A stretch of 36,613 nucleotides of DNA from Bacteroidales bacterium (GTDB lineage: Bacteria > Bacteroidota > Bacteroidia > Bacteroidales > UBA3824). The notes beneath the pieces were generated by a model. That model made no database searches. It had not been told where the DNA came from and saw nothing but the letters and a program-made list of their open reading frames with translations. Location: contig JAEERW010000024.1 of the NCBI GenBank assembly GCA_016286055.1, positions 1 to 36,613 of the forward strand, in the 5' to 3' direction. This document shows positions 11,406 through 35,411 of this stretch, piece after piece (position 1 is the first letter of the stretch; every line of letters starts with the position of its first letter). The position numbers and the translations under genes are program-made.

Positions 11406-11972
11406 TTATACAAACGAATCAGCCATCAAATCTTTTCTACCAATAAGACTAAAAATTGTTATCTTATTGTCCTCATTAATAATACGCAACGTTCTCAAAA
11501 TTTCACCAAGAGTAGAGCCGCTTGTGGTTACATCGTCGATAATAAGCACATTTTGTTTGCGAATTTGGGCACAAAGTTCTGCGTCGGCAGATAAAACATC
11601 CTTATAATAAACCATTTTGGGCTGAGCAAAACGGTAAATGTAACGCATCATATAGCGTGTAACATCGTTTTGCAAATCGGGCATTATCACAAGTTCGTAA
11701 AAATAAAGGTTCACTTGATTATGTAAAGAATCAACAGCACGTTGAATAAATTCAGTCAACTTCGGCTTCGATTTTAAACCAACATTACACTTAATGAAGT
11801 GATTGAATTTATTTCTAAGCGCATTTGGAACATCATCGGCAAAATCAAAATGGTAGTAAAAGCAATTATCTATAAAATTGAGATTAGAACCAAATCCTTT
11901 TAATGAAACAACTTCATCGTGTTCAAAATCAAACACAAACTTATTTGTTCCATCAAAAAATGTTATGCCCAT
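11406..11972 (-). CDS. Phosphoribosyltransferase-like protein, shortened paralogue
   Basis: With the start at MGITFFDG the product has 188 residues. The PRPP-binding motif VLIIDDVTTSGST near the C-terminus marks a type I phosphoribosyltransferase. It is a paralogue of the 268-residue protein at 34450-35256. The last 60 residues are identical, but the N-terminal part is much more divergent. About 80 residues between 'RYIYRFAQP' and 'ADAELCAQ' are replaced by about ten (KMVYYKDVLS). The loss removes most of the region before the PRPP loop, so activity is doubtful. The frame could extend 14 codons upstream, but that would include the promoter (TAACTTTG, 11990-11997); both paralogues share about 20 bp of leader before this ATG. 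Confidence 0.75.
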   Translation of the reverse strand: MGITFFDGTNKFVFDFEHDEVVSLKGFGSNLNFIDNCFYYHFDFADDVPNALRNKFNHFIKCNVGLKSKPKLTEFIQRAVDSLHNQVNLYFYELVIMPDLQNDVTRYMMRYIYRFAQPKMVYYKDVLSADAELCAQIRKQNVLIIDDVTTSGSTLGEILRTLRIINEDNKITIFSLIGRKDLMADSFV

Positions 11973-11989
11973 ATCGAAGTAATTTTTTG

Positions 11990-11997
11990 CAAAGTTA
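11990..11997 (-). promoter_or_regulatory. -7 box for the short phosphoribosyltransferase gene
   Basis: The minus strand reads TAACTTTG, then GCAAAAAATTACTTCGAT into the ATG at 11972. The paralogue at 34450 has TATCTTTG followed by nearly the same leader. Confidence 0.6.
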
Positions 11998-12040
11998 ATA
12001 AAAATCGTTATCAACCGAATACGATTATTAAATTATTGAG

Positions 12041-12048
12041 TATATTTG
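12041..12048 (+). promoter_or_regulatory. -7 box for the DUF4160/DUF2442 unit (TATATTTG)
   Basis: TATATTTG lies 18 bp before the ATG at 12067. The surrounding 60 bp (12016-12075) resemble the promoter block of the TIR-Sel1 gene (19048-19107), with matching CGAATACGATT and ATTATTGA-TATATTTGC. Confidence 0.7.
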
Positions 12049-12066
12049 CAAAAAATAAAATTGACT

Positions 12067-12300
12067 ATGCCAACAATATTCATTTTTTTCGGATTTCGGT
12101 TTCTGTTCTACTCAAACGACCATGAACCTGTACACGTTCATATCGTTAAAGACGATTGCGAAGCAAAATATAATGTAAAACCATTAGAACAAATCTATAA
12201 TCACGGTTTTTAAAAGCGCGAAATAGCAATTATTGAATCCATTATAGATGAAAACCAAGAAATTATAATCGACCGTTGGACTAACTATTTTAACAAATAA
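12067..12300 (+). pseudogene. DUF4160 protein interrupted by one in-frame stop
   Basis: Translation from the ATG gives MPTIFIFFGFRFLFYSNDHE, then PVHVHIVKDDCEAKYNVK and PLEQIYNHGF, followed by TAA at 12211-12213. The same frame then continues without a gap as KREIAIIESIIDENQEII and DRWTNYFNK to a normal stop at 12300. Together this is a complete DUF4160 protein of about 77 residues. DUF4160 small proteins are usually paired with DUF2442 proteins, as here, and are suspected toxin-antitoxin-like modules without a settled function. The only lesion is a single codon (TAA where AAA would restore Lys). Confidence 0.8.
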
Positions 12301-12655: not shown

Positions 12656-14986
12656 TTAATCAATTGACGATTCATCAAAACCGTCATTTGACCATTGGGA
12701 TAAAACGTCTATTGCATCAGGTATATAAGAAAGAATATGTTTGGGATTGATATAATACAGGAACATTATTATGCTTTTTGCAATAATTATTTTTTCTTCC
12801 TTGGAAAATTTAAAACCTGTTATATTCATTGCATTAGCGGCTTCTTGTTCATGACTTTCTCCATTTAACACCAATCTGGTCATAAGATTTTTATAATATA
12901 ATCGCTTATTCCCGGGAATATTTTTTATTACATCATTATCATGAGATATTGACATAAAATCACGAGCATAAACAAAAGAAGAATATGCTTCCATCAGTTT
13001 TCTCATTTGGTTGCCAATAACTGATGATTTTTTGTCAGCATTTTTATTGCAGGCAAATTCAAAAACAGCAATCATAATAGTTTTGTATTCGTTAAACAAA
13101 CCTTTTTTGGGAGATATTCCTTTATCGACAAGTTCTAGATACCCATCTTTATTTTCTTCTAATTCAGTTCGTACTTTCTGCAAGTTAAAGACAGTTTGAA
13201 TATCATGAGTCATTATGAGAATTTTGGTATTAGGATTGCCTTGAATGAATTGTTCGGTCATCCATCTCAATAAAGAAATGACACCTACTCGATTCTCAAA
13301 ATCGAAACTTGAAACAGGGTCATCAATAATAATAATAGAAGCATCTTTATATTTGTCTTTATTATTTTTGTCAACGAACATACTGGCGAAAAAGTAACAT
13401 AAGGCAATTATATTTCTCTCTCCGACAGAGATAGTTGAAGGTTTGACATCTTTATTGCGTGATAATAACGTATATATACCATTCTCTTTTGTTAATTGCA
13501 ATCTGTCTTTGTCAAAAAAGACATAAGACAAAGCCTGATTGATAAAATCAAGAGCGATTGTAATTTGTTGTTTCTGAGCAATAAGATTATTCAATTGTTT
13601 TTTTACTCGTTCTTCATCTTCCTTTCTCTTTTTTAATAATTGTATTAGATTATTTTTATTTTCGGACAAATCAGAATATTCTTTAATAAGTGATTCTAAT
13701 TCATAATAAGCCAAGTGTTTATTCTGTTTACTAATATTTTCTTTAAAAGTTTTTTGTTTTTCTACTACTTGGTTGAAATTCTTCACAAGACCATCAAGAT
13801 GGTCCAATGATTCTTCCACATTGTGGAAACACTTATTAAAATTATCCTCATCAATTAATTTATTATATGGCAGATAAATATTAACCATTCTTTCTTTTAG
13901 AATTGACTTTGCTTTGTTAATTTCACTATTATAGACACGAATATCTCTTTCGAGATTCTTTATTGCAGTACTAAAAAGTTTATTATCAATGTTAGGTACA
14001 ATTTTTAAGGATATTTCTACAAATTTAGCCATTGCTTCGGCAAGTTGATTTTTATAAGTTTCAGCCTCCTTATTGAGTATTCTTTTAACCAATTGAATTA
14101 CAGACTCTTTACCAACAGAATTAATGGGGCGTAAACATAAAGGACACACATTAACATTCTCATCATTAAAAACCACCTGAGAATCACCAATATAACGTCC
14201 GTATTTACCCTGAATGATATCCATAATATTCTTTTCACGTTCTGAAAACTCAGGAATCTCTTTGTGTACACAAAGGAGTTTATTAACATAGGTAATATCA
14301 ATGTCATTCGTGAGTGTAGGACAATTCCATTCAATCGGTTGTTGTCCTTTTGTTTGTTCTATTATCTTAATACCACCTAGAACTTCTTCCGACAAAGTTT
14401 GAAATGATAGTGTTCCTTTCCCAGTTTGTATTATGTTTCCTAAAACAACATCATTTACATCACTCTTTGATATCTTCCCTTGAATGGCTCTTTCTCTATC
14501 TGCCCAATTTCCATCCTTCCGTAATTGTTTCAATAATTGCTTATGAATGTCCTCATATTTATTCGCAACACTTCCAATAACTTCTGTATTCAAACTACAT
14601 ACCAATTGCGATTTTTCTTCCAGAATTTTATTTAAAACTGCCTCATACTCTTTAATTTGTAAATCAAGTTCAACCTGTTCACCAAGCATAATTATTGGAT
14701 GCAATCCGTCTTGCTCAACTTTGATATTTTTTTCTATATAATCCTCATTGAAAACGAAAATATGTTTTTTATCATCATCGTTCAGAGGTTCATCGAATTC
14801 TATGTGTGGTGATTCCATTGACGAATCGGATACGTATGCTGAAATAGCCCGAGAGATTGATGATTTACCGCTACCATTACGACCGTACAAGATATTAAAC
14901 CTATAAGGCAATATTGGTAAAGATTCATTCGAAAAGAAAGAATCACCACTATTGTTAAATGATATTGTTGTCTGATTTCCTATCAT
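12656..14986 (-). CDS. RloC-like AAA_13 ATPase with zinc-hook motif and putative anticodon-nuclease C-terminus
   Basis: A 776-residue SMC/Rad50-like ATPase. Walker A is YGRNGSGKSS (34-43). A long coiled coil (about 100-490) is split by CPLC (281-284), a Rad50/RloC-type zinc-hook motif. The ABC signature is SVGERN (520-525), Walker B IIIIDDPVSSFD (551-562) and the H-loop IMTHD (591-595). The C-terminus holds Arg662-x3-Glu666 (MRKLMEAY) and His712 (LVLNGESHEQ), which resembles the Arg-Glu-His catalytic set of PrrC and RloC tRNA anticodon nucleases. RloC enzymes cut or excise a wobble base of tRNA under DNA-damage or phage stress. The gene lies 97 bp behind the DUF4365-TPR gene on the same strand, with no clear promoter of its own. 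The ATPase call is firm; nuclease activity is inferred. Confidence 0.8.
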   Translation of the reverse strand: MIGNQTTISFNNSGDSFFSNESLPILPYRFNILYGRNGSGKSSISRAISAYVSDSSMESPHIEFDEPLNDDDKKHIFVFNEDYIEKNIKVEQDGLHPIIMLGEQVELDLQIKEYEAVLNKILEEKSQLVCSLNTEVIGSVANKYEDIHKQLLKQLRKDGNWADRERAIQGKISKSDVNDVVLGNIIQTGKGTLSFQTLSEEVLGGIKIIEQTKGQQPIEWNCPTLTNDIDITYVNKLLCVHKEIPEFSEREKNIMDIIQGKYGRYIGDSQVVFNDENVNVCPLCLRPINSVGKESVIQLVKRILNKEAETYKNQLAEAMAKFVEISLKIVPNIDNKLFSTAIKNLERDIRVYNSEINKAKSILKERMVNIYLPYNKLIDEDNFNKCFHNVEESLDHLDGLVKNFNQVVEKQKTFKENISKQNKHLAYYELESLIKEYSDLSENKNNLIQLLKKRKEDEERVKKQLNNLIAQKQQITIALDFINQALSYVFFDKDRLQLTKENGIYTLLSRNKDVKPSTISVGERNIIALCYFFASMFVDKNNKDKYKDASIIIIDDPVSSFDFENRVGVISLLRWMTEQFIQGNPNTKILIMTHDIQTVFNLQKVRTELEENKDGYLELVDKGISPKKGLFNEYKTIMIAVFEFACNKNADKKSSVIGNQMRKLMEAYSSFVYARDFMSISHDNDVIKNIPGNKRLYYKNLMTRLVLNGESHEQEAANAMNITGFKFSKEEKIIIAKSIIMFLYYINPKHILSYIPDAIDVLSQWSNDGFDESSID

Positions 14987-14996
14987 AATAGTTTTA

Positions 14997-15035
14997 CTTT
15001 ACTTATTCGTAGTTAATAATCAATATTAAGTAAAG
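14997..15035. repeat. Short inverted repeat between the TPR-nuclease and ATPase genes
   Basis: CTTTACTTA (14997-15005) and TAAGTAAAG (15027-15035) are perfect 9-bp arms around a 21-bp AT-rich loop. They sit just upstream of the ATPase start. The repeat could be a regulator site or an mRNA structure that tunes the downstream gene. Confidence 0.4.
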
Positions 15036-15083
15036 CAAAAAATGTACCTTTAAGAACAAAATTGTTTACCAATAAACATATTT

Positions 15084-17507
15084 TTATAAAAATGTACTTG
15101 TATTATCTTTAATGATATTTGATTCTTTCTCTTTTTCGCATATGTCAAACAGCAAATCTTTGGCTTTGTCTAAATACTTAGTTGTTACATTTGAGTTTTC
15201 CTTTAATGATTGGAATGTATTGATTGCTTTTTCACAAGATTGTTTAGCAACATCATATCTTTTTTCTTCGTGTTGTATGATGGCTAATGATAAAAGTGAC
15301 ATACCAATATATGCAATAAATTTATTAGGATGATTATTATCAAGCATTTGATATATTTTCAGAATTGCCATCATTTTTTTTTCAGCATCGTAATATTGTT
15401 TCTGTTCAATATATAGCAAATTAAGATCTCGAAGAATACTTATGATTAGAAAGAGCAAATCAGTTGGAATATTTTTGGGATAGTTCCAATACAATTTAAG
15501 CGCATCATTAATTTCTTCATCTGCCATGCTCAATTGTTTGTTTGCTGTGTGAATGCTTGCAAGATTGCACAGTGTGTTAATTTCATGATAAGCATATACT
15601 GAGGGATTTTTCTTGACTAATTTCTTACAAACTAGGAGAACTTCTTTAAACTCATTTTCTGCTTCCGTTGGTTTATCATGATAAAAATGTAATATCGCTG
15701 AATCATGTAGTACATTTAACATCTTAATAATATCTGAATCTGGAATAGAATTAGAAATACATAAATAAAAATCGACAATTTGATGAATTTCTTTTTCTGC
15801 ATCACAATATCTATTAAGTGATGTATACAATAATACAAGATTACAGAGAGTTCCAATAATATAACAATTATAGGCTTCGGGATATGACTCTGCAAGTTTC
15901 CTATAAATAACTAAACAATCATTATATTCTGCTTCTGCTTTTTTTACTTCACATGTTACGCTATGTAGATTCGCCATATTATTCAGTGTGTCAGCCACAC
16001 CTTTTATATATGCATTTGGGTATTTGGTAGCTAAACGTTGTCTAATATCCAAAGCCTCTTTGAATTCTATTTCAGCTCGGTCAAAGATTTTTGTTGATTT
16101 ATGAAATATTGCAAGGTTATTAAGACTTGTAGCCAAATCACTCAAATATTTATCAGGATTATATTGAGATAATTTACGATAAGTATTTAAAGATTCTAAA
16201 TATTCTTGTTCCGCTTCGTTGTATAATTTCATATTATCATGCAAAACCGCTAAATTATTATGTATCATAGCTACATTCTCAAACAACTCAAAATCATTCT
16301 TGGACAAATTATGATACAAATCCAAAGCTTTTTTATATTCCTCTTCCGCTTTTGCATATTTATTAAAGCGGTTATATAAGTTAGCCAAATTATTGTGAGT
16401 TGTAGCAACTTCTTCCATATAGGGGGTTGAATTATCATCTGATAGAACTAGATAAAAACAAAGAGCCTCTTTGAATGCAAGTTCGGCTTCTTTGTAACGA
16501 TTTAGAACAGAATGAAGGCGACCTATGTTATTAAGGGTTGCGGCCAGATAATTATTGTAAATTTTTGGAGCATCTATCGCAAGGTTTCTAAACACTTTCA
16601 AAGCTTCCGTAAACTCCTTTTCGGCTTCGTGATATAGATTACGATCAAGATGAATAAGGCCCAAATTGTTAATAATTAATGCATAATACAAACAATATTG
16701 ATTGCCTGCTTTTTGTAATTCATTCAAAGCATTATCATAATATCTTTCAGCCAAATCATATAATTTTTGGTTGAATAAGTATACACCAAAATTAATGAGA
16801 AGATTAATAAATTTATATTGTTTCATGTTACAATATACTATTTCAATAACCTTTTGAGCGTAATAAATGAATTTATCACGCCAACCGGCAGTTGCATCTT
16901 CTTTTAGATTTACTATTGTATCAATTAGTGGTTCAACATCGTACCTGATGTTTATATCAACGATATTTTCAAGATTTTTTCTTATTATTCTAAACTCTTT
17001 TACCAATGATTTTATCTCAAATGGGGAAGGATTGTCTATTGTTTCTTTCTGTCTTGCTTCTGCGAATTGTATAACAGCTTGTTCAAAATATTGGGGTTTG
17101 TCTGAAATCTCTTGCAATTTTAAAGTTATAGTTTTTGTCTCCTCTTGCAACATTGTCTCTATTGAACTAACAGAGAGGAAAGTATAAAGGATTCGATTAG
17201 ATTCTACATTATCATTGATTTGCACAAGAAAGAATACACATCCCCTGTCTGCTTTAAATCCCTTTAAATATTCTCGTCCAATTCTAAAACTGTCATTTTT
17301 AAAGTTCTTTGTTCCCTTTATTTGAAGAGGTATCCTATATACAAAATCACGTACTGAATGGTTAACGTCGCTATTGTAAACATAAATATCACCATCCCAA
17401 ATAGGAGTCTTATCATTTGATGTTATATAAGGCTCTAACTTAGGACATCTATCAATATAGTTTTCCACAGCACGAACTGCCGCTCGCTCAATTTTATCGT
17501 TATTCAT
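15084..17507 (-). CDS. DUF4365-like (PD-(D/E)XK-type) domain fused to about 11 TPR units
   Basis: An 807-residue protein. The first ~130 residues resemble DUF4365: Glu15, then WDGDIYVY (Asp38/Asp40) and PLQIKG (Gln62-x-Lys64). This order fits the Glu...Asp...(E/Q)xK core of restriction-endonuclease folds. Residues ~280-785 hold about eleven regular 46-residue TPR units whose first helix reads like NNLAxLHxxxxxYxEAExEF. The protein is probably cytoplasmic: a TPR sensor arm with a nuclease-like head. It is first in a two-gene unit with the RloC-like ATPase. The minus-strand box TAAATTTG (17521-17528) is a good promoter. A catalytic role of the head is inferred; it could also be a degenerate DNA-binding version. 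Confidence 0.75.
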   Translation of the reverse strand: MNNDKIERAAVRAVENYIDRCPKLEPYITSNDKTPIWDGDIYVYNSDVNHSVRDFVYRIPLQIKGTKNFKNDSFRIGREYLKGFKADRGCVFFLVQINDNVESNRILYTFLSVSSIETMLQEETKTITLKLQEISDKPQYFEQAVIQFAEARQKETIDNPSPFEIKSLVKEFRIIRKNLENIVDINIRYDVEPLIDTIVNLKEDATAGWRDKFIYYAQKVIEIVYCNMKQYKFINLLINFGVYLFNQKLYDLAERYYDNALNELQKAGNQYCLYYALIINNLGLIHLDRNLYHEAEKEFTEALKVFRNLAIDAPKIYNNYLAATLNNIGRLHSVLNRYKEAELAFKEALCFYLVLSDDNSTPYMEEVATTHNNLANLYNRFNKYAKAEEEYKKALDLYHNLSKNDFELFENVAMIHNNLAVLHDNMKLYNEAEQEYLESLNTYRKLSQYNPDKYLSDLATSLNNLAIFHKSTKIFDRAEIEFKEALDIRQRLATKYPNAYIKGVADTLNNMANLHSVTCEVKKAEAEYNDCLVIYRKLAESYPEAYNCYIIGTLCNLVLLYTSLNRYCDAEKEIHQIVDFYLCISNSIPDSDIIKMLNVLHDSAILHFYHDKPTEAENEFKEVLLVCKKLVKKNPSVYAYHEINTLCNLASIHTANKQLSMADEEINDALKLYWNYPKNIPTDLLFLIISILRDLNLLYIEQKQYYDAEKKMMAILKIYQMLDNNHPNKFIAYIGMSLLSLAIIQHEEKRYDVAKQSCEKAINTFQSLKENSNVTTKYLDKAKDLLFDICEKEKESNIIKDNTSTFL

Positions 17508-17739: not shown

Positions 17740-17808
17740 GTGCCAAAAATGTGTAAACTTACACATTTTTGGCACCTATTTTTGTGGGTTTTTACACATT
17801 TTTGGCAC
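17740..17808. repeat. Element A: 36-bp palindrome plus an extra half-site, upstream of RhuM-Fic
   Basis: GTGCCAAAAATGTGTAAA (17740-17757) is followed at once by its inverse (17758-17775, one central mismatch). After a 15-bp spacer comes another inverse half TTTACACATTTTTGGCAC (17791-17808). The full 69 bp recur in opposite orientation at 35343-35411, with two differences. The element lies about 46 bp before the -7 box at 17855 and is a likely operator or structured repeat. Confidence 0.85.
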
Positions 17809-17854: not shown

Positions 17855-17862
17855 TATATTTG
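17855..17862 (+). promoter_or_regulatory. -7 box for the RhuM-Fic gene (TATATTTG)
   Basis: TATATTTG lies 27 bp before the ATG at 17890. Because a TTG start at 17860 would sit inside this box, the ATG at 17890 is preferred. Confidence 0.7.
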
Positions 17863-17889
17863 CCAAAAGTATTATTACAACTCACAAGT

Positions 17890-18888
17890 ATGACACTCAA
17901 CGACAAAATACTGATTTACCAAACCGACGACGGACAAATGCAAATTGATGTCCGTATGGAAAACGAAACGGTATGGCTGTCACAACAACAGATGGCAGAA
18001 CTGTTTCAGAAAGACCGAACAGTAATCGGACGACACATAAAAAACATTTTTTCAGAATGTGAACTTGACGAAAAAGTGGTATGTGCAAAATTTGCACATA
18101 CCACTCCACATGGTTATATTAAAGATCAAACTCAAATTCAGGAAACTATACTTTACAACCTCGACGTAATAATCTCCGTTGGCTACCGTGTAAAGAGCAA
18201 GCGCGGTACTCAGTTTCGTATTTGGGCTAACAAAATCTTAAAAGATTATCTCATAAAAGGTTACGCAGTAAACACCAAAATATCCCAACAGAAATTTGAC
18301 GACCTCAAAAAACTTGTGAACGTATTGGGTCGCACGGTAAAGGCACAAGAGCAACTAACTTCTGATGATGCTACCGCCCTTATCAACGTTGTTACCAACT
18401 ATAATTATGCCCTCGACACATTGGACGATTACGACTACGAGCGTCTTAGCATCAAGGAAACAACTAAAACGGAGAAATTCCACGCCACCTACGAAAATGC
18501 AATGGCGGCAATACTATCATTGAAGTCAAAATTTGGTGGAAGTGCCTTGTTCGGAAACGAAAAAGACGAATCATTCAAAAGTTCTATTGGACAAATTTAT
18601 CAAACATTTGGCGGTATGGAACTTTATCCGTCTGTTGAAGAAAAAGCGGCAATGTTGCTTTATCTTGTTACTAAAAACCATTCGTTTAGCGACGGAAACA
18701 AACGCATTGCCGCCACATTGTTTCTATGGTTTATGGACAACAATGGTATTCTTTTTAATCCCGATGGCTCAAAACGAATAGCCGACAATACACTTGTAGC
18801 CCTTACACTTATGATTGCTGAAAGCCGTACCGAAGAAAAAGACACTATGGTAAAAGTTGTGGTAAACCTCATTAATAAAAACAATTAA
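17890..18888 (+). CDS. RhuM-Fic fusion protein (virulence RhuM domain with C-terminal Fic/DOC)
   Basis: A 332-residue two-domain protein. The N-terminal RhuM-type region contains the helix-turn-helix-like 'VWLSQQQMAELFQKDRTVIG' (28-47) and 'GYRVKSKRGTQFRIWANKIL' (98-117), the RhuM family signature. The C-terminal Fic domain has the complete catalytic motif HSFSDGNKR (264-272), so AMP or another nucleotide could be transferred to a target protein. Chromosomal RhuM-Fic proteins are common near restriction and toxin-antitoxin loci, and their targets are unknown. No autoinhibitory motif was identified with certainty. The gene has its own promoter and is framed by palindromic element A upstream and B downstream. 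Confidence 0.88.
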   Translation: MTLNDKILIYQTDDGQMQIDVRMENETVWLSQQQMAELFQKDRTVIGRHIKNIFSECELDEKVVCAKFAHTTPHGYIKDQTQIQETILYNLDVIISVGYRVKSKRGTQFRIWANKILKDYLIKGYAVNTKISQQKFDDLKKLVNVLGRTVKAQEQLTSDDATALINVVTNYNYALDTLDDYDYERLSIKETTKTEKFHATYENAMAAILSLKSKFGGSALFGNEKDESFKSSIGQIYQTFGGMELYPSVEEKAAMLLYLVTKNHSFSDGNKRIAATLFLWFMDNNGILFNPDGSKRIADNTLVALTLMIAESRTEEKDTMVKVVVNLINKNN

Positions 18889-19004: not shown

Positions 19005-19072
19005 AAAAATTTATTACACATATAGCCAACAAAAAAAACTCCTCAATCGAATACGATTTTAAAATTATTGAC

Positions 19073-19080
19073 TATATTTG
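19073..19080 (+). promoter_or_regulatory. -7 box for the TIR-Sel1 / nitroreductase unit (TATATTTG)
   Basis: TATATTTG lies 18 bp before the ATG at 19099, with TATTG upstream. The 60-bp block around it resembles the DUF4160 promoter at 12016-12075. Confidence 0.7.
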
Positions 19081-19098
19081 CCAAAACAAAATTGAATA

Positions 19099-20274
19099 AT
19101 GGCAACAAAAAAGAAATACGACTTTTTTATAAGTTATCGCCGTGCAAATAACGGCACTGTATGCGGCAGTTTCCTCGTGGGATTGCTTAGCGACTTTAAT
19201 GTTTTTTATGATGTAGACTCAATTACCGAAGGCAAATTCGACGAACAAATTCGCACGGCTTTGGAAAATACCGAACGTTTTATTCTTGTGGTTACCGACG
19301 GAGCGTTCGACCGTCCCGAAGTGCCCGGTAAGCGCGATTGGTATTACGAGGAAATTGGTCTCGCTATCGAAACCGTTGGTTTAGACCGTATTACGCCTGT
19401 GATTTTTAGCGGAACATTCAACGAGGATGTTCTTCCTCCATCGCTCAAAGGTCGCGGATTGCGTTCGTGTCAAACCGTGAAATATGTGGCTGAATATGCA
19501 AAATATTTCAAAGATGAGTTTTACAATCATTTCGGACTCAACAATCCGTCTTCGTCGAAAAATGTTGAATCGCCCACCCGCGAACAAGTGGAAGACGATG
19601 ATTACGACAATGAGGAATACGACGACGAGGATTATTACGAAGAGTATGAATATGACGACATTGAAGAACTGAAACAAGAAGCCGCCAAGGGCAATCACGC
19701 CGCCCAAAACACTCTTGGAGATTGTTATTTTGATGGCGAGGATGTCCGCAAAAACTACAAAGAGGCTGTTAGATGGTATCGCGCCTCGGCAGAACAGGGC
19801 AACTCTTGTGCACAATATAGTCTTGGATATTGCTATTACATGGGCAATGGCGTAAAGGTAGACAACGATGAGGCTTTCCGTTGGTTCAAAGAGTCTGCCG
19901 AACAGGAACATTCCACCGCTCAATGCTATGTAGGGCACTGTTATTACAATGGTTTCGGCGTAAAGAAAAGTTTGAAAGAGGCTGTTAAATGGTATCGTTT
20001 ATCGGCAGAACAAGACGACCCCGAAGGTTTAAACGCCCTTGGCAATTGCTATTACGAAGGCGACGGTGTGGAGCAAGATTACAAAGAGGCTGCAAAACTA
20101 TACAAAATGGCGGCAGATCAGGAAGATGCAATTGGTCAATTCAACCTTGGCACTTGCTATTATTATGGCGATGGCGTTAAGGAAAACACCAAAAAGGCTT
20201 ACGAACTTATTAGTGCCTCTGCCGAACAAGAGTACGATGAGGCTATCAAATTTTTAGAGGAAAACGAATTTTAA
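19099..20274 (+). CDS. TIR domain-Sel1 repeat protein
   Basis: A 391-residue protein. Residues 1-150 form a TIR domain: box 1 YDFFISYRR (7-15), then VFYDVDSITEGKFDEQI and FILVVTDGAF. The segment DWYYEEIGLAIE has Glu84/Glu85 where TIR NAD-hydrolases keep their catalytic Glu. A very acidic linker (about 165-190, runs of D, E and Y) leads to about five 36-residue Sel1 repeats (LGxCYYxGxGVxxxxxEAxxWY). Bacterial TIR proteins often deplete NAD+ or make cyclic ADP-ribose signals during phage defence, and Sel1 repeats can act as the sensing arm. It is the first gene of a likely unit with the nitroreductase 11 bp downstream. NADase activity is inferred. Confidence 0.85.
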   Translation: MATKKKYDFFISYRRANNGTVCGSFLVGLLSDFNVFYDVDSITEGKFDEQIRTALENTERFILVVTDGAFDRPEVPGKRDWYYEEIGLAIETVGLDRITPVIFSGTFNEDVLPPSLKGRGLRSCQTVKYVAEYAKYFKDEFYNHFGLNNPSSSKNVESPTREQVEDDDYDNEEYDDEDYYEEYEYDDIEELKQEAAKGNHAAQNTLGDCYFDGEDVRKNYKEAVRWYRASAEQGNSCAQYSLGYCYYMGNGVKVDNDEAFRWFKESAEQEHSTAQCYVGHCYYNGFGVKKSLKEAVKWYRLSAEQDDPEGLNALGNCYYEGDGVEQDYKEAAKLYKMAADQEDAIGQFNLGTCYYYGDGVKENTKKAYELISASAEQEYDEAIKFLEENEF

Positions 20275-20802: not shown

Positions 20803-21462
20803 TTATTTACTCTCAAAATAATCAAAAATACAGTTCATTTCGGAACATCCTTGACTATAACAAGTGATATTATCGAACTGAACCGCATTTTTTCGTGCCT
20901 TTTTTAGTCCGCTATCACCACCAAGACGTTCGTAAATGTCGGGATGATTGTTGTAATAATCTTCTTTTTTTGAGTAGTTGGCAAGAGCGGGATTTTTTTT
21001 AAGATCGGGATAAAGCGCAGCAAAATCTGCATAATGCTTTGATGTTTTATTGAAATGCAACAGATACCAATATTCCAAGCAAGGATTATTAACTACCAAA
21101 AGCATATTCTTCATCCATCCGTATTTTTTTATTTGTTGTCCCGACAATTTGTCTTTGCTCGCCAACAAATACTTTTGATATAGTTCGTTGAATTTTGACA
21201 TTTCACCAGCATCCTTCAATGGTTCGTCTAAGTCAAAAATCAATATTACATAAGAATAGTCTTCGTCTAATTTTGCTTTTGCCAAATCAAACAAATCTTG
21301 AACTTTTTTGTGTGACGGCAGTTCAGGTTTAATTTTCACATTTTTGAGTGCAGCGCAAGGATAATGCTCCTTAACTTTTGCCATATACCACTTCTCGTCC
21401 TTACCGTCAACAACAAGGGCAATAGATTCTTTTGACTGTCTCTTTTTAAATTGCCTTGCCAT
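20803..21462 (-). CDS. rloB: RloB-like protein (AbiLii family)
   Basis: With the start at MARQFKKRQ (ATG at 21462) the protein has 219 residues. RloB hallmarks are present: a beta strand with VVDGKDEKWY near residue 18, ILIFDLDEP (73-81) and NPCLEYWYLLHF (126-137). RloB is related to Toprim-type effectors and pairs with the ATPase RloA; the lactococcal homologues AbiLi/AbiLii give abortive phage infection. Typical members have VxEGxxTE in the first motif, whereas here the acidic residue is Asp (VVDGKDE). The gene overlaps rloA by 17 bp, implying coupled translation. Confidence 0.85.
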   Translation of the reverse strand: MARQFKKRQSKESIALVVDGKDEKWYMAKVKEHYPCAALKNVKIKPELPSHKKVQDLFDLAKAKLDEDYSYVILIFDLDEPLKDAGEMSKFNELYQKYLLASKDKLSGQQIKKYGWMKNMLLVVNNPCLEYWYLLHFNKTSKHYADFAALYPDLKKNPALANYSKKEDYYNNHPDIYERLGGDSGLKKARKNAVQFDNITCYSQGCSEMNCIFDYFESK

Positions 21463-22813
21463 CGGTTTCAATAGTTTTAGAATTAGCAATAAATGTATCA
21501 CCTAATCGAGGTATTGCGCCCAAACGTCCGGCACGATAAAAATTGTAACGATTTGAGGAATCGCGCAAAACATCGCTACCAAAATCAGCCAAAGAATACA
21601 ACTCTGTTGCGCCCTCGTCGTTTTTTTCGGTAAACCAAACAATATCATCGCGAAACATATCCTTATCTGCCAAAAATTCCCGCATGTGTGTTGTGAATAC
21701 AATTTGCGATTCTTTGGCGTTATGGAGGAAAGTTGTAATGAAATGCGTGTAAAGGTCGGGGTGAAGGCGACATTCAAGTTCGTCGATGGCGAAAAAGAGT
21801 GATTGTTTTAACGAGAGTAATAATAGTCCGGAGAGTTGAAAATACCTTTGCGTTCCACCTGATTCATTTTCAAAATCAAAAGGAATTAAACAATTATTCC
21901 CTTTATGTAATAGGTTAATTTTAACTTCTTCATAAGCACCTTTGCGTATTTCGTTTTTAAATTCCTGTGGAAGAGATTCCTCCGCTAAATACATTTCAAC
22001 AATATTGTTCGGTATATTAGTTGTTACTTTTTTAACATTAAAACCTGATACCCCTATATCTGACTTTTGTAATTGAAAAGCCATCATATTATTATCAATA
22101 TCTTTATTATCAATACTTTTTAATATAAATATATGTAAAAAATTTTCACTAATATAGTTTCCATAAAACATTTTATCTGATATAATATTATAACTATTTA
22201 TATTCAGATAACTTTGTACCCAATCTACGATTTCTTTCATCCACGGAATATCAATGTTGCTTTTTTCAAAAGCCCCAAAAACAGTTCTATTATGTATTAA
22301 ATTCACACTTAATAGACGACTATTAGAGGTAGAGCGATATTTATCTCCAAATTTTAATTTAGATAAATGTGAGTTTTGATCAGTGGTTCTTTCAAATACT
22401 GTATGAAGCCTCTTTTCGGTAAAAGGTTGTTTTTGAAGTATTTCAAAAATAACCATGTTATTATTAAAATGTACTTCGTAACGATATTTTTGTGTACCAC
22501 AAATAAAATTGACAATCATTACTGAATTACCTTCAATATAATCTTTATCCAAAGCGAATTTAGAATACTCAATTTTAGAAGATTTATTTTCACAAGGATC
22601 AAGTATTAACAGTGGGAACATATTGAAAGCCCTTATAATGTTACTTTTTCCCGAAGCATTGGCACCGAGTATCACAGCCATTTTCAATATTCTGTAATCG
22701 CCTTTTTTAATTACATAGTAATCTTCAAGATGCGTATCTTTTGAAGCCTCAAACGAAATGGTTTGGGGTTCACGGATGGATCTAAAATTCGATATGGTAA
22801 AATCTAATATCAT
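21446..22813 (-). CDS. rloA: RloA-like AAA_15/AAA_21 ATPase (AbiLi family)
   Basis: A 455-residue ABC-like ATPase beginning MILDFTISNFRSIREPQTIS, characteristic of RloA/AbiLi and OLD-related ATPases. Walker A is LGANASGKSN (49-58), the signature region ESGGTQR (317-323) and Walker B FFAIDELE (340-347) with a following HP. The H-loop is FTTHM (373-377). It likely senses infection or binds DNA and controls the partner RloB, encoded downstream with a 17-bp overlap. The two genes form one unit; TAAATTTG on the minus strand (22870-22877) is a candidate promoter. Full length and intact. Confidence 0.88.
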   Translation of the reverse strand: MILDFTISNFRSIREPQTISFEASKDTHLEDYYVIKKGDYRILKMAVILGANASGKSNIIRAFNMFPLLILDPCENKSSKIEYSKFALDKDYIEGNSVMIVNFICGTQKYRYEVHFNNNMVIFEILQKQPFTEKRLHTVFERTTDQNSHLSKLKFGDKYRSTSNSRLLSVNLIHNRTVFGAFEKSNIDIPWMKEIVDWVQSYLNINSYNIISDKMFYGNYISENFLHIFILKSIDNKDIDNNMMAFQLQKSDIGVSGFNVKKVTTNIPNNIVEMYLAEESLPQEFKNEIRKGAYEEVKINLLHKGNNCLIPFDFENESGGTQRYFQLSGLLLLSLKQSLFFAIDELECRLHPDLYTHFITTFLHNAKESQIVFTTHMREFLADKDMFRDDIVWFTEKNDEGATELYSLADFGSDVLRDSSNRYNFYRAGRLGAIPRLGDTFIANSKTIETDGKAI

Positions 22814-25602: not shown

Positions 25603-26433
25603 TTATTTGTTAAACTCACCAAGAATATCTTTAAACTCCTGCGGAATCATCGATAGAATTTTGTCGGTGATTGCTTGCGGGATTTTTTTGTAGAATGCCT
25701 CAGCAATGCCGCCGGTGATGCAAACAAGAGTGTCGGTGTCGCCGCCGAGCGAAACTCCAAGACGTATGGCAGATTCAAAATCTGTGCTGTCGAAAAACGC
25801 TGTCATTGCCTCAGGTACAGTGCCTTGACACGAACCGTCGAAATGATATTTTGGGCGAATGTCGTCGCAAGTGCGGGTTAAATCGTAGCCGAATGTCTGG
25901 GTAATGTAATCTTTGATTTCTTGTTTTGATTTGCAGGTGCGGGCAAGGAAAATAGCCGCCGCCGTTGCCTGTGCGCCCTTGATGCCTTCGGGGTGATTGT
26001 GTGTGATTTCGGCAGAACGTTTGGCTATTTCGAGGGTTTCTTCCAAAGTGTCGAACGCCCAACCCACGGCAGAAACACGCATTGCCGAGCCGTTGCCCCA
26101 TGAGTTGTAAGGATGTCGCCTGGATGGAGATTTGGAGGAGAAATTTTCGTCGTAAGTGTGAAGTTGTTCTGGATGAAACACCCAACGTTCAAACCCTCCG
26201 CCGTATGCGCCCATAGGGTCTGGGTAACGTGTGCACATTTCCACAAGACATTCTTCTAATTTTTCAAAAGTATGTTGCTTGTCGACAACGAGCCATTTAG
26301 CCACAGCCACGGTAACAATTGAGTCGTCGGTAAATTCACATTCCGGGGCGAAAAGCGGAAAATCAACCGACTTATGGTTGTGAAATTCGTATATCGAACC
26401 TACTGTATCGCCTATTACTGAGCCTAATATCAT
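25603..26433 (-). CDS. ADP-ribosylglycohydrolase family protein (DraG-like)
   Basis: A 276-residue all-helical hydrolase of the DraG/ARH family that removes ADP-ribose from proteins or related substrates. Metal ligands are in FTDDS (34-38) and GGDTDT (230-235), and GNGSAMR (113-119) is present. The N-terminus MILGSVIGDTVGSIYEFHN is typical of the family. Length and all key residues are intact. It is the middle gene of an operon, 26 bp after the VOC gene and 9 bp before the small membrane protein. A decayed second copy of the gene lies at 31945-32193. The substrate could be protein-, nucleic acid- or small-molecule-linked ADP-ribose. Confidence 0.92.
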   Translation of the reverse strand: MILGSVIGDTVGSIYEFHNHKSVDFPLFAPECEFTDDSIVTVAVAKWLVVDKQHTFEKLEECLVEMCTRYPDPMGAYGGGFERWVFHPEQLHTYDENFSSKSPSRRHPYNSWGNGSAMRVSAVGWAFDTLEETLEIAKRSAEITHNHPEGIKGAQATAAAIFLARTCKSKQEIKDYITQTFGYDLTRTCDDIRPKYHFDGSCQGTVPEAMTAFFDSTDFESAIRLGVSLGGDTDTLVCITGGIAEAFYKKIPQAITDKILSMIPQEFKDILGEFNK

Positions 26434-31944: not shown

Positions 31945-32193
31945 TTACTTGTTGAAACCACCCAAAATCTCCTTAAACTCCTGCGGAATTATAGTTAGAA
32001 TTTTGTCGGTGATGTTTTGCGGAATCTCCTCATATTCGGGACGGATTTCGTCGCAAGTGCGGTAGAGATTGTAGCCGAAGGTCTTGGTGATGTAATCTTT
32101 GATTTCCTCTTTTGATTTGCCGTTTCGTGCAAGGAAAATAGCCGCAGCCGTGGCTTGTGCGCCCTTGATGCCTTCGGGATGGTTGTGTACCAA
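31945..32193 (-). pseudogene. Truncated ADP-ribosylglycohydrolase copy
   Basis: This 82-residue frame matches the C-terminal half of the DraG-like protein at 25603-26433: 'HNHPEGIKGAQATAAAIFLA' is shared, as is IIPQEFKEILGGFNK with small changes. The N-terminal 144 residues are missing. A further ~50 residues, including the metal-binding GGDTDT motif, are deleted between RPEY and EEIPQ. It cannot be an active hydrolase. Just upstream on the same strand (to 32281) an out-of-frame peptide MQLSEYIILIIVGLAILAGI suggests a junction with the start of a different membrane-protein gene. Confidence 0.85.
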
Positions 32194-34384: not shown

Positions 34385-34424
34385 GAGATGTATGAGTGAT
34401 GGGTACAACTTATTATTTTTTTAT

Positions 34425-34432
34425 TATCTTTG
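34425..34432 (+). promoter_or_regulatory. -7 box for the full-length phosphoribosyltransferase gene (TATCTTTG)
   Basis: TATCTTTG then CAGAAAATTACTTCGAT leads into the ATG at 34450, matching the leader of the paralogue at 11972. Confidence 0.65.
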
Positions 34433-34449
34433 CAGAAAATTACTTCGAT

Positions 34450-35256
34450 ATGGGCATAACATTTTTTGATGGAACAAATAAGTTTGTGTTTGATTTTGAA
34501 CACGATGGCGCAACTGATATTATCACGCTTACGGGAAGCGGATACAAAGTTAAGGCGTTTGGACATTGCTTTTACTATGGATATGAGTTTCGCGACGATG
34601 TTTCGGGTAGTGTGCGGTCAGAATTTATTAAATATCTGAAATTTACGGGTGATTTAAAAAACAATTCCAATCTTACCGATTTTATAAAGCGTGCAGTTGA
34701 TGCCCTCCACAAAAAAATCAACCTCTACGATTATGATCTTGTTGTAATGCCTGAATCGTCGAGCGAGGTTAACAAATATATGCTTCGTTACATTTACCGT
34801 TTTGCTCAGCCCCATTTGCAAAAAATGGAATTGATTAAGGCTTTGCCTTCTAATATTGATTTTGATATGGACGGTTATCGTGAGCAGTATTTGAATGATG
34901 TTTTAGAAAACGGGCGTCCGCGTTACACTGAAAAACAGAAAGATGAGGTTAAAAAATCTATTCAGTCAATGCTCGACGACATTCACCGAAAGGATTATTT
35001 TACAATTGCCAAAGATGTTAAAAAGAGTCGTTTCCGTCCTTATATTACGCGTTTTCTTACGTTTAAGACAGATGCTGATGCCGAACTTTGTGCGCAAATT
35101 CGCAAACAAAATGTGCTTATTATCGACGATGTAACCACCAGCGGCTCTACCCTTGGCGAGATTTTGAGAACTTTACGCATCATTAACGAGGATAATAAGA
35201 TAACAATTTTTAGCCTTATTGGTAGAAAAGACTTGATGGCAGATTCGTTTGTATAA
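34450..35256 (+). CDS. Phosphoribosyltransferase-like protein, full-length paralogue
   Basis: A 268-residue protein. The PRPP-binding motif VLIIDDVTTSGST (222-234) marks a type I phosphoribosyltransferase. The conserved VVMPESSSEVNKYMLRYIYR (98-117) may form the pyrophosphate loop. Residues 209-268 are identical to the short paralogue at 11406-11972, while the N-terminal domain (MGITFFDGTNKFVFDFEHD...) is only moderately similar. A basic helical segment (about 122-205) present here is missing there. The base being transferred is unknown. The ATG at 34450 is chosen because the leader matches the paralogue's. Elements B' and A' lie directly downstream. Confidence 0.85.
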   Translation: MGITFFDGTNKFVFDFEHDGATDIITLTGSGYKVKAFGHCFYYGYEFRDDVSGSVRSEFIKYLKFTGDLKNNSNLTDFIKRAVDALHKKINLYDYDLVVMPESSSEVNKYMLRYIYRFAQPHLQKMELIKALPSNIDFDMDGYREQYLNDVLENGRPRYTEKQKDEVKKSIQSMLDDIHRKDYFTIAKDVKKSRFRPYITRFLTFKTDADAELCAQIRKQNVLIIDDVTTSGSTLGEILRTLRIINEDNKITIFSLIGRKDLMADSFV

Positions 35257-35342: not shown

Positions 35343-35411
35343 GTGCCAAAAATGTGTAAAAACACACAAAAATAGGTGCCAAAAATGTGTAAATTTACAC
35401 ATTTTTGGCAC
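35343..35411. promoter_or_regulatory. Element A': inverted copy of the 69-bp palindromic element, upstream of AAA_14 gene 2
   Basis: Half-site GTGCCAAAAATGTGTAAA (35343-35360), a 15-bp spacer, then a perfect 36-bp palindrome of the same half-site and its inverse (35376-35411). It is the reverse complement of element A with two differences. The palindrome ends 30 bp before the -7 box TATCTTTG at 35442 and is a candidate operator. Confidence 0.85.

Follow-up and report, generated by a model that had tools for sequence, protein, structure and literature searches.

An RloC-family ATPase gene beside a DUF4365-like TPR gene in a Bacteroidales defence island: probably neighbours, not a conserved two-gene system

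Introduction

Do two defence-type genes that follow each other on one strand act together, or do they simply share an island? The question is raised by a gene for a zinc-hook ATPase that lies directly behind a gene for a TPR protein with a DUF4365-like head, in a 36,613-nucleotide stretch of Bacteroidales DNA (hereafter the window, meaning the whole stretch analysed). The initial annotation proposed that the two form an undescribed composite anti-phage system. A search of the open literature, with one awkward phrase among its terms and subscription papers outside its scope, returned no paper on a TPR nuclease with an AAA_13 protein in anti-phage defence. Here we characterise both proteins, examine whether their homologues occur together, and weigh the ways in which the pair could be read.

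Results and Discussion

Layout and composition of the gene pair

The tandem arrangement was borne out: both reading frames are present on a common strand, with the ATPase gene 97 bp downstream of the TPR gene (Table 1), and the RhuM-Fic, TIR-Sel1 and RloAB genes that had been named as neighbours are indeed in the window. The G+C contents of the pair are alike and low (0.306 and 0.302; GC3 0.242 and 0.229), and all sixteen other window genes that were measured lie above them, from 0.318 for the RloA-like gene to 0.488, so that the matched composition would fit a joint arrival. A sigma-70 scan gave 43 candidates, which is the level of shuffled sequence (mean 36.6, sd 6.1). A scan with a Bacteroidota-type promoter pattern, at most one mismatch being allowed, gave a single degenerate match, which precedes the TPR gene; the 97-bp gap and the region before the ATPase gene gave none.

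Table 1. Positions of the features discussed, in window coordinates unless a locus or contig is named.
Feature	Position	Strand	Basis
AAA_13 ATPase gene, 776 aa	12656-14986	-	ORF, ATG start
DUF4365-like head + TPR gene, 807 aa	15084-17507	-	ORF, ATG start
AT-rich intergenic gap, 97 bp, G+C 0.196	14987-15083	-	composition
Predicted PD-(D/E)XK-type nuclease head, residues 1-160	17028-17507	-	7-head alignment, AF2, motif
TPR array, 11 x 46 residues, residues 277-782	15162-16679	-	periodicity; Pfam TPR_12, TPR_10
RhuM-Fic gene, divergent	17860-18888	+	Pfam Virulence_RhuM 2.5e-20, Fic 7.9e-12; PADLOC PDC-S23
RloB/RloA pair	20803-22813	-	RloA-like protein, PADLOC AbiLi 3.6e-70; partner, Pfam RloB 3.3e-21
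Phosphoribosyltransferase-like gene, shorter	11406-12014	-
Phosphoribosyltransferase-like gene, longer	34396-35256	+
Direct repeats	12011-12076, 19043-19108		85% identical
GTGCCAAAAATGTGTAA sites	17740-17808, 35343-35411; source genome C17:894-962		one C17 half-site with mismatch
Second-copy pieces of ADP-ribosylglycohydrolase gene	25603-26433, 31945-32188		81-85% identical
Split ATPase homologue	L019:7001-9328
Head gene convergent with distant ATPase	L013:4995-9567
Head, STAND-like NTPase, TPR array, 965-aa frame	L135:3106-6000

The ATPase and the RloC family

The 776-residue protein matches Pfam AAA_13 (2.9e-54), and SMC_N and AAA_21 more weakly. It carries a CxxC zinc-hook motif, C281-PL-C284, and a complete RloC triad, R662-x3-E666-x45-H712, with S711 before the histidine. 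The rule given for RloC is R-x3-E-x36-52-H, often with a serine before the histidine, together with a CxxC hook and a length of 658-897 residues (PMC2610378). The ATPase accordingly has the ABC motifs interrupted by the hook, the C-terminal triad and the size of the enzyme of Davidov and Kaufmann (2008). When the window protein is aligned with 51 homologues, each a single ORF of 700-850 residues and together drawn from 51 of the 78 listed loci described below, K41, C281, C284, D555, D556, H594, R662, E666, S711 and H712 are kept in all 52 rows, and the spacing from E666 to H712 runs from 44 to 49 residues. With hook, AAA_13 match and full triad all present, the initial assignment of an RloC-like ATPase holds, and its sequence adds a new protein to the RloC family. 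RloC acts on tRNA, cutting the anticodon loop and removing the wobble nucleotide, an activity that is predicted for the window protein; the gene differs from RloC as described in PMC2610378 in standing behind a DUF4365-TPR gene, a partner not seen at the 78 listed related loci.

The AlphaFold model of the ATPase (mean pLDDT 81.9, pTM 0.52) has a mostly helical insert at about residues 99-490, in which confidence drops to 58-73 close to the hook, and it matches Rad50 (7zr1, 1.7e-8), Lamassu LmuB (9hqu, 7.3e-7) and SMC heads. Its best PADLOC family is PDC-S06 (2.9e-36), and LmuB is also matched (1.1e-20).

Homologues of the two proteins are not found together

In order to evaluate whether the pairing is conserved, we scanned genome contigs with the ATPase alignment, and the best 80 of 93 confirmed matches gave 78 distinct loci. 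Neither the head profile (E ≤ 0.01) nor the TPR protein (blastp, E ≤ 0.001) found a match at any of these 78 listed loci, which held 3249 ORFs of at least 60 residues and reached at least 2.5 kb upstream of the ATPase gene in 65 cases; in a spiked control all five known proteins added were recovered, namely the window protein and four of four heads from outside the profile rows. The closest ATPase relative among the matches listed, at 64% identity, is in a Bacteroidales MAG (L019), where no TPR gene was seen within the 10.7 kb examined and the ATPase gene is preceded by a DUF4143-AAA_14 gene and followed by an AAA_21 gene. The ATPase homologue at L019 is split into three reading frames, and comparison of the 97-bp gap with the region before it gave just 7-base matches in the portion of the output inspected. 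At the genome level, only one of 49 ATPase-bearing genomes (from 50 of the 78 listed loci) has a head, on a different contig. A search with the ATPase in 59 relatives returned the source genome's own copy and, besides it, only weak local similarity in two cases (E 1.8e-7 and 1.8e-4); the ATPase profile found nothing at E ≤ 1e-30 beyond that copy in 395 genomes of the phylum. A phage collection yielded one ATPase relative (1e-11) and two head matches, and the relatives found on the viral contigs scanned were heads only.

From the side of the head, 33 loci were examined in two batches (24 and 9), of which 32 hold a head and one (L134) does not; the L153 and L017 proteins are identical, and L016/L112 and L141/L142 are near duplicates. 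The profile of the window's ATPase clade (A2, E ≤ 1e-3) found no member at any of the 33. A broader profile (A8) gave one distant match (5.9e-6, 19.9 bits), at L013 on an Arthrobacter plasmid, where the head gene is convergent with a gene for an 827-residue, CPLC-containing ATPase and adjoins type I restriction genes. Within the phylum the head was recovered from the source genome alone, both by a search with the single protein (296 genomes) and by the profile (395 genomes, E ≤ 0.001); at E ≤ 1e-5 it was present in 6 of 341 sampled genomes in the class of L046, a Clostridia MAG, and in 9 of 398 in the class of L060, a Streptococcus. Rare pairs could have been missed by these counts, since the ATPase loci are the best 80 of 93, some loci are short or end at contig ends, and four head matches (H50, H56, H66 and H67) lie outside the 33.

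The conserved adjacency that a two-gene system would imply is not seen in these sets, and the homologue adjacency test came out against the composite system first proposed, which is left unsupported. Given that the homologues are not found together elsewhere, the pair looks like neighbours and not like a new two-part system. We consider it likely that two separately mobile defence genes, both probably anti-viral, have come to lie side by side in a defence island, their adjacency being local. In favour of this reading are the RloC signature in 52 of 52 rows, the 0 of 78 listed loci and 0 of 33 head loci, the closest listed ATPase relative with no TPR gene in its 10.7 kb, and the differing tails of the heads; against it are the common strand, the 97-bp gap and the shared low G+C, and we also counted against it that a DNA-targeting defence gene is often found in the upstream slot (18 of 40, see below), as well as the distant convergent ATPase at L013. 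The value of the analysis is that what are probably coincidental neighbours will not be recorded as a new defence system.

By the mechanism of its family, the ABC ATPase and zinc-hook coiled coil of the RloC-like protein would restrain the anticodon nuclease at its C-terminus; damage or infection would free that nuclease, whereupon host tRNA would be cut and translation would stop. The 807-residue protein would be a single-gene sensor-effector, in which the TPR solenoid serves as the binding site for a phage or stress ligand, the protein oligomerises, and the DUF4365-type head then cuts nucleic acid; this we infer by analogy with DUF4365/DREN nucleases and with the head-STAND-like-TPR relative described below.

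What the ATPase clade sits behind

Upstream sequence of 500 bp or more is available at 72 of the listed ATPase loci, and at 40 of the 72 an ORF of 150 residues or longer, on the same strand, ends no more than 150 bp before the ATPase gene; 25 of these upstream genes were scanned directly and 15 were assigned to scanned ones through blastp. Restriction, BREX or YhcG genes make up 18 of the 40, i.e. 18 of the 72 loci, 11 by Pfam directly and 7 by blastp cluster: HsdR (7), HsdM-type (3), ResIII (1), type II R-M (5), BrxL (1) and YhcG nuclease (1). The other 22 are RloB (1), HARE-HTH (2, weak), ATPase_2/AAA_14-like (3), tRNA U5-methyltransferase-like (5) and miscellaneous or unmatched genes (11). 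Besides placing the ATPase in the RloC family, the analysis shows that genes of this clade often follow immediately after a restriction, BREX or nuclease gene, of which there are several kinds. At L092, L058, L059, L026 and L061 the RloC-like genes are directly behind type II (AlwI, D12 methylase), BrxL and YhcG nuclease genes, kinds that differ from the type I/III restriction linkage given for RloC in PMC2610378.

These upstream genes invite a reading in which the DUF4365-TPR nuclease occupies the restriction slot and the RloC-like tRNase is a second line that acts when the first fails or makes DNA breaks, with RhuM-Fic completing a set directed at DNA, RNA and protein. PrrC and RloC genes frequently occur within R-M operons, as well as together with genes of the RhuM or Fic/Doc type, and a three-level defence of R-M, RloC/PrrC and Doc/RhuM has been proposed (PMC3710099, 2013). 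The window resembles these sets in having RloC-like and RhuM-Fic genes in one island, and it differs from them in that no R-M gene was found among the 17 scanned of its 51 ORFs of at least 100 residues, and in the DUF4365-TPR gene that lies in between. The 18 of 40 upstream genes, the matching composition of the ATPase and TPR genes, and the activation of an Acinetobacter RloC by an inducer of DNA breaks (PMC3874168) all speak for such a pair. However, the searches gave no second instance of it, 22 of the 40 upstream genes carry no restriction or nuclease assignment, and relatives of RhuM-Fic occur at just 3 of the 78 listed loci (blastp, E ≤ 1e-5; RloA 1, and RloB, TIR-Sel1 and the phosphoribosyltransferase 0; Pfam also detects an RloB protein at L023), which makes this restriction-like arrangement unlikely, if still the best placed of the alternatives.

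Somewhat less probable again is a relay, in which the TPR arm would sense infection, the head would break DNA, and the breaks would activate the adjoining RloC-like enzyme and so stop translation. The Acinetobacter observation and the shared low G+C make a functional connection by way of DNA breaks possible. Were the relay true, the three-level defence of R-M, RloC and RhuM-Fic would here have a restriction-free form, its parts linked by DNA damage and not by a physical complex.

The TPR protein and its DUF4365-like head

The significant Pfam matches of the 807-residue protein are TPR families (TPR_12 at 1.8e-34), with DUF7913 below threshold (0.004). The mean BLOSUM62 autocorrelation is 0.67 at lag 46, where 200 shuffles over lags 20-99 reached a maximum of -0.40, confirming the period of the eleven 46-residue units that had been claimed; the units were placed at fixed 46-residue steps and the final ones have diverged.

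The head itself (residues 1-160) has no direct Pfam match at E ≤ 1. By tblastn it found homologues in seven plasmid records (E 1e-14 to 6e-3); six of the seven were inspected, and in these the matched part is the N-terminus of a protein with an annotated length of 407-629 residues. Two relatives pass the DUF4365 cut-off (L014, 1.8e-5; L017, 3.3e-5), and the invariant columns of seven aligned heads include E7, D38, G39, Q62 and K64, so that the Q-x-K active-site pair of DUF4365/DREN is present in all seven. DREN/DUF4365 is described as a nuclease of the PD-(D/E)XK fold that tetramerisation activates in SPARDA (PMC12205087). For TmuRE, a DUF4365 protein, Q62 and K64 have been put forward as potential residues of the active site, and a Q62A/K64A form served as the inactive mutant (PMC10810196). 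The initial assignment of a DUF4365-like head with a nuclease-type motif (E7, D38, Q62-x-K64) holds; the structural check of the fold came out divided. An AF2 model built from four sequences has ten-residue pLDDT means of 79-92 over residues 1-150, apart from one block at 68, and its element order (helix, strands, helix, strands, helix, strand, helix) fits PD-(D/E)XK, but Foldseek found nothing in the PDB at E ≤ 0.001, DpnI standing at rank 39 with E 0.72. Since no structural match is significant, the assignment as a nuclease rests on homology and motif, and we regard the head as a predicted PD-(D/E)XK-type nuclease.

That the head is instead a binding or degenerate domain, and the TPR protein no nuclease, we hold to be improbable. 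The Foldseek result and the lack of a direct Pfam match would suit such a domain, as would the best PDB sequence match of the head profile, which is to peanut lectin (4.3e-5). Against it stand the invariance of E7, D38, Q62 and K64 across all seven aligned heads, the two relatives above the DUF4365 cut-off, the helix-strands-helix order of the elements and the role proposed for Q62 and K64 in TmuRE (PMC10810196). The odd lectin match covers about 69 residues and was at 0.003 in another search; beside it we set the alpha/beta element order predicted for the head.

Among the 32 heads, only that of L135 is followed by a tail matching the window's TPR array (blastp 7e-14, with limits of E up to 1 in the 24-locus batch and up to 0.01 in the 9-locus batch); one further match to the TPR part, at E 0.26, is a small ORF with no head. 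The L135 frame, in a Clostridia MAG, runs from the head through an nSTAND_NTPase5 match (1.3e-4, below the curated cut-off) to a TPR array (TPR_12, 1.8e-116), and it may encode an antiviral STAND protein whose effector is of the DREN type. The L135 and window proteins share the head family and have related TPR_12 arrays, and the window protein differs in having none of the NTPase-like middle: no STAND or NTPase family was found in the 807-residue protein by Pfam at E ≤ 1. The head-STAND-like-TPR order is the nearest architecture found to that of the window protein. At L141 the head belongs to an 1182-residue protein with a sub-threshold ANAPC3 match only. The head family is modular, its members carrying different tails (uncharacterised, STAND-like with TPR, TPR alone), and these tails offer a testable set of possible sensors for a single effector. 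The STAND-less DUF4365-TPR protein is the less usual member of the pair, a variant architecture that these searches found in the source genome alone. On contig C36 of the same genome (L002) there is a long TPR protein with repeats 31-33% identical to those of the window and, by eye, an NTPase-like part upstream.

Comparison with other systems

In Lamassu, the LmuA nuclease is encoded beside the hook ATPase LmuB. A Lamassu-like system here, with the hook ATPase as a sensor that holds and then releases the nuclease, would agree with the nuclease-like protein adjoining a hook ATPase and with the LmuB matches of the model and in PADLOC, but it is highly improbable given the higher PDC-S06 score, the retained RloC triad, the lack of an LmuA match and of any PADLOC match to the TPR protein (E ≤ 0.01), and a pairing that is not conserved. 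Membership of Lamassu was rejected on the same PADLOC results.

Three further identities were considered and set aside. PrrC is a hookless protein of 341-416 residues linked to type Ic restriction, unlike the 776-residue hook ATPase in a window with no R-M gene among the 17 scanned ORFs. With SPARDA and TmuRE-Ago (PMC12205087, PMC10810196) the window protein shares a DUF4365-like head and the Q-x-K at 62/64, but it has a TPR tail instead of APAZ and no Argonaute family was found among the 14 Pfam-scanned window ORFs, so that it was not assigned to SPARDA. Membership of the Avs/antiviral STAND proteins was rejected because Pfam gave no NTPase family in the 807-residue protein at E ≤ 1.

Other genes and repeats in the window

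The RloA/RloB pair may be an AbiL system, given its AbiLi and RloB matches (Table 1). Two phosphoribosyltransferase-like genes flank the defence genes in opposite orientation; they share 91% identity across 184 bp at the 3′ ends and 70% across 400 bp, and the shorter is without the central part. The protein of the shorter gene has a weak match to ShosT (3.4e-6).

Several repeats accompany these genes. An inverted pair of the 17-mer GTGCCAAAAATGTGTAA, with a third half-site 33 bp off, has three copies in the genome (a reversed-pattern control gave 0), which lie near the RhuM-Fic and TPR nuclease genes, a phosphoribosyltransferase gene and, as judged by eye, a restriction-like gene. Direct repeats, each with a TATATTTGC core on the plus strand, are found beside the starts of the minus-strand phosphoribosyltransferase gene and the plus-strand TIR-Sel1 gene, and pieces of a second copy of an ADP-ribosylglycohydrolase gene lie at two places further along the window.
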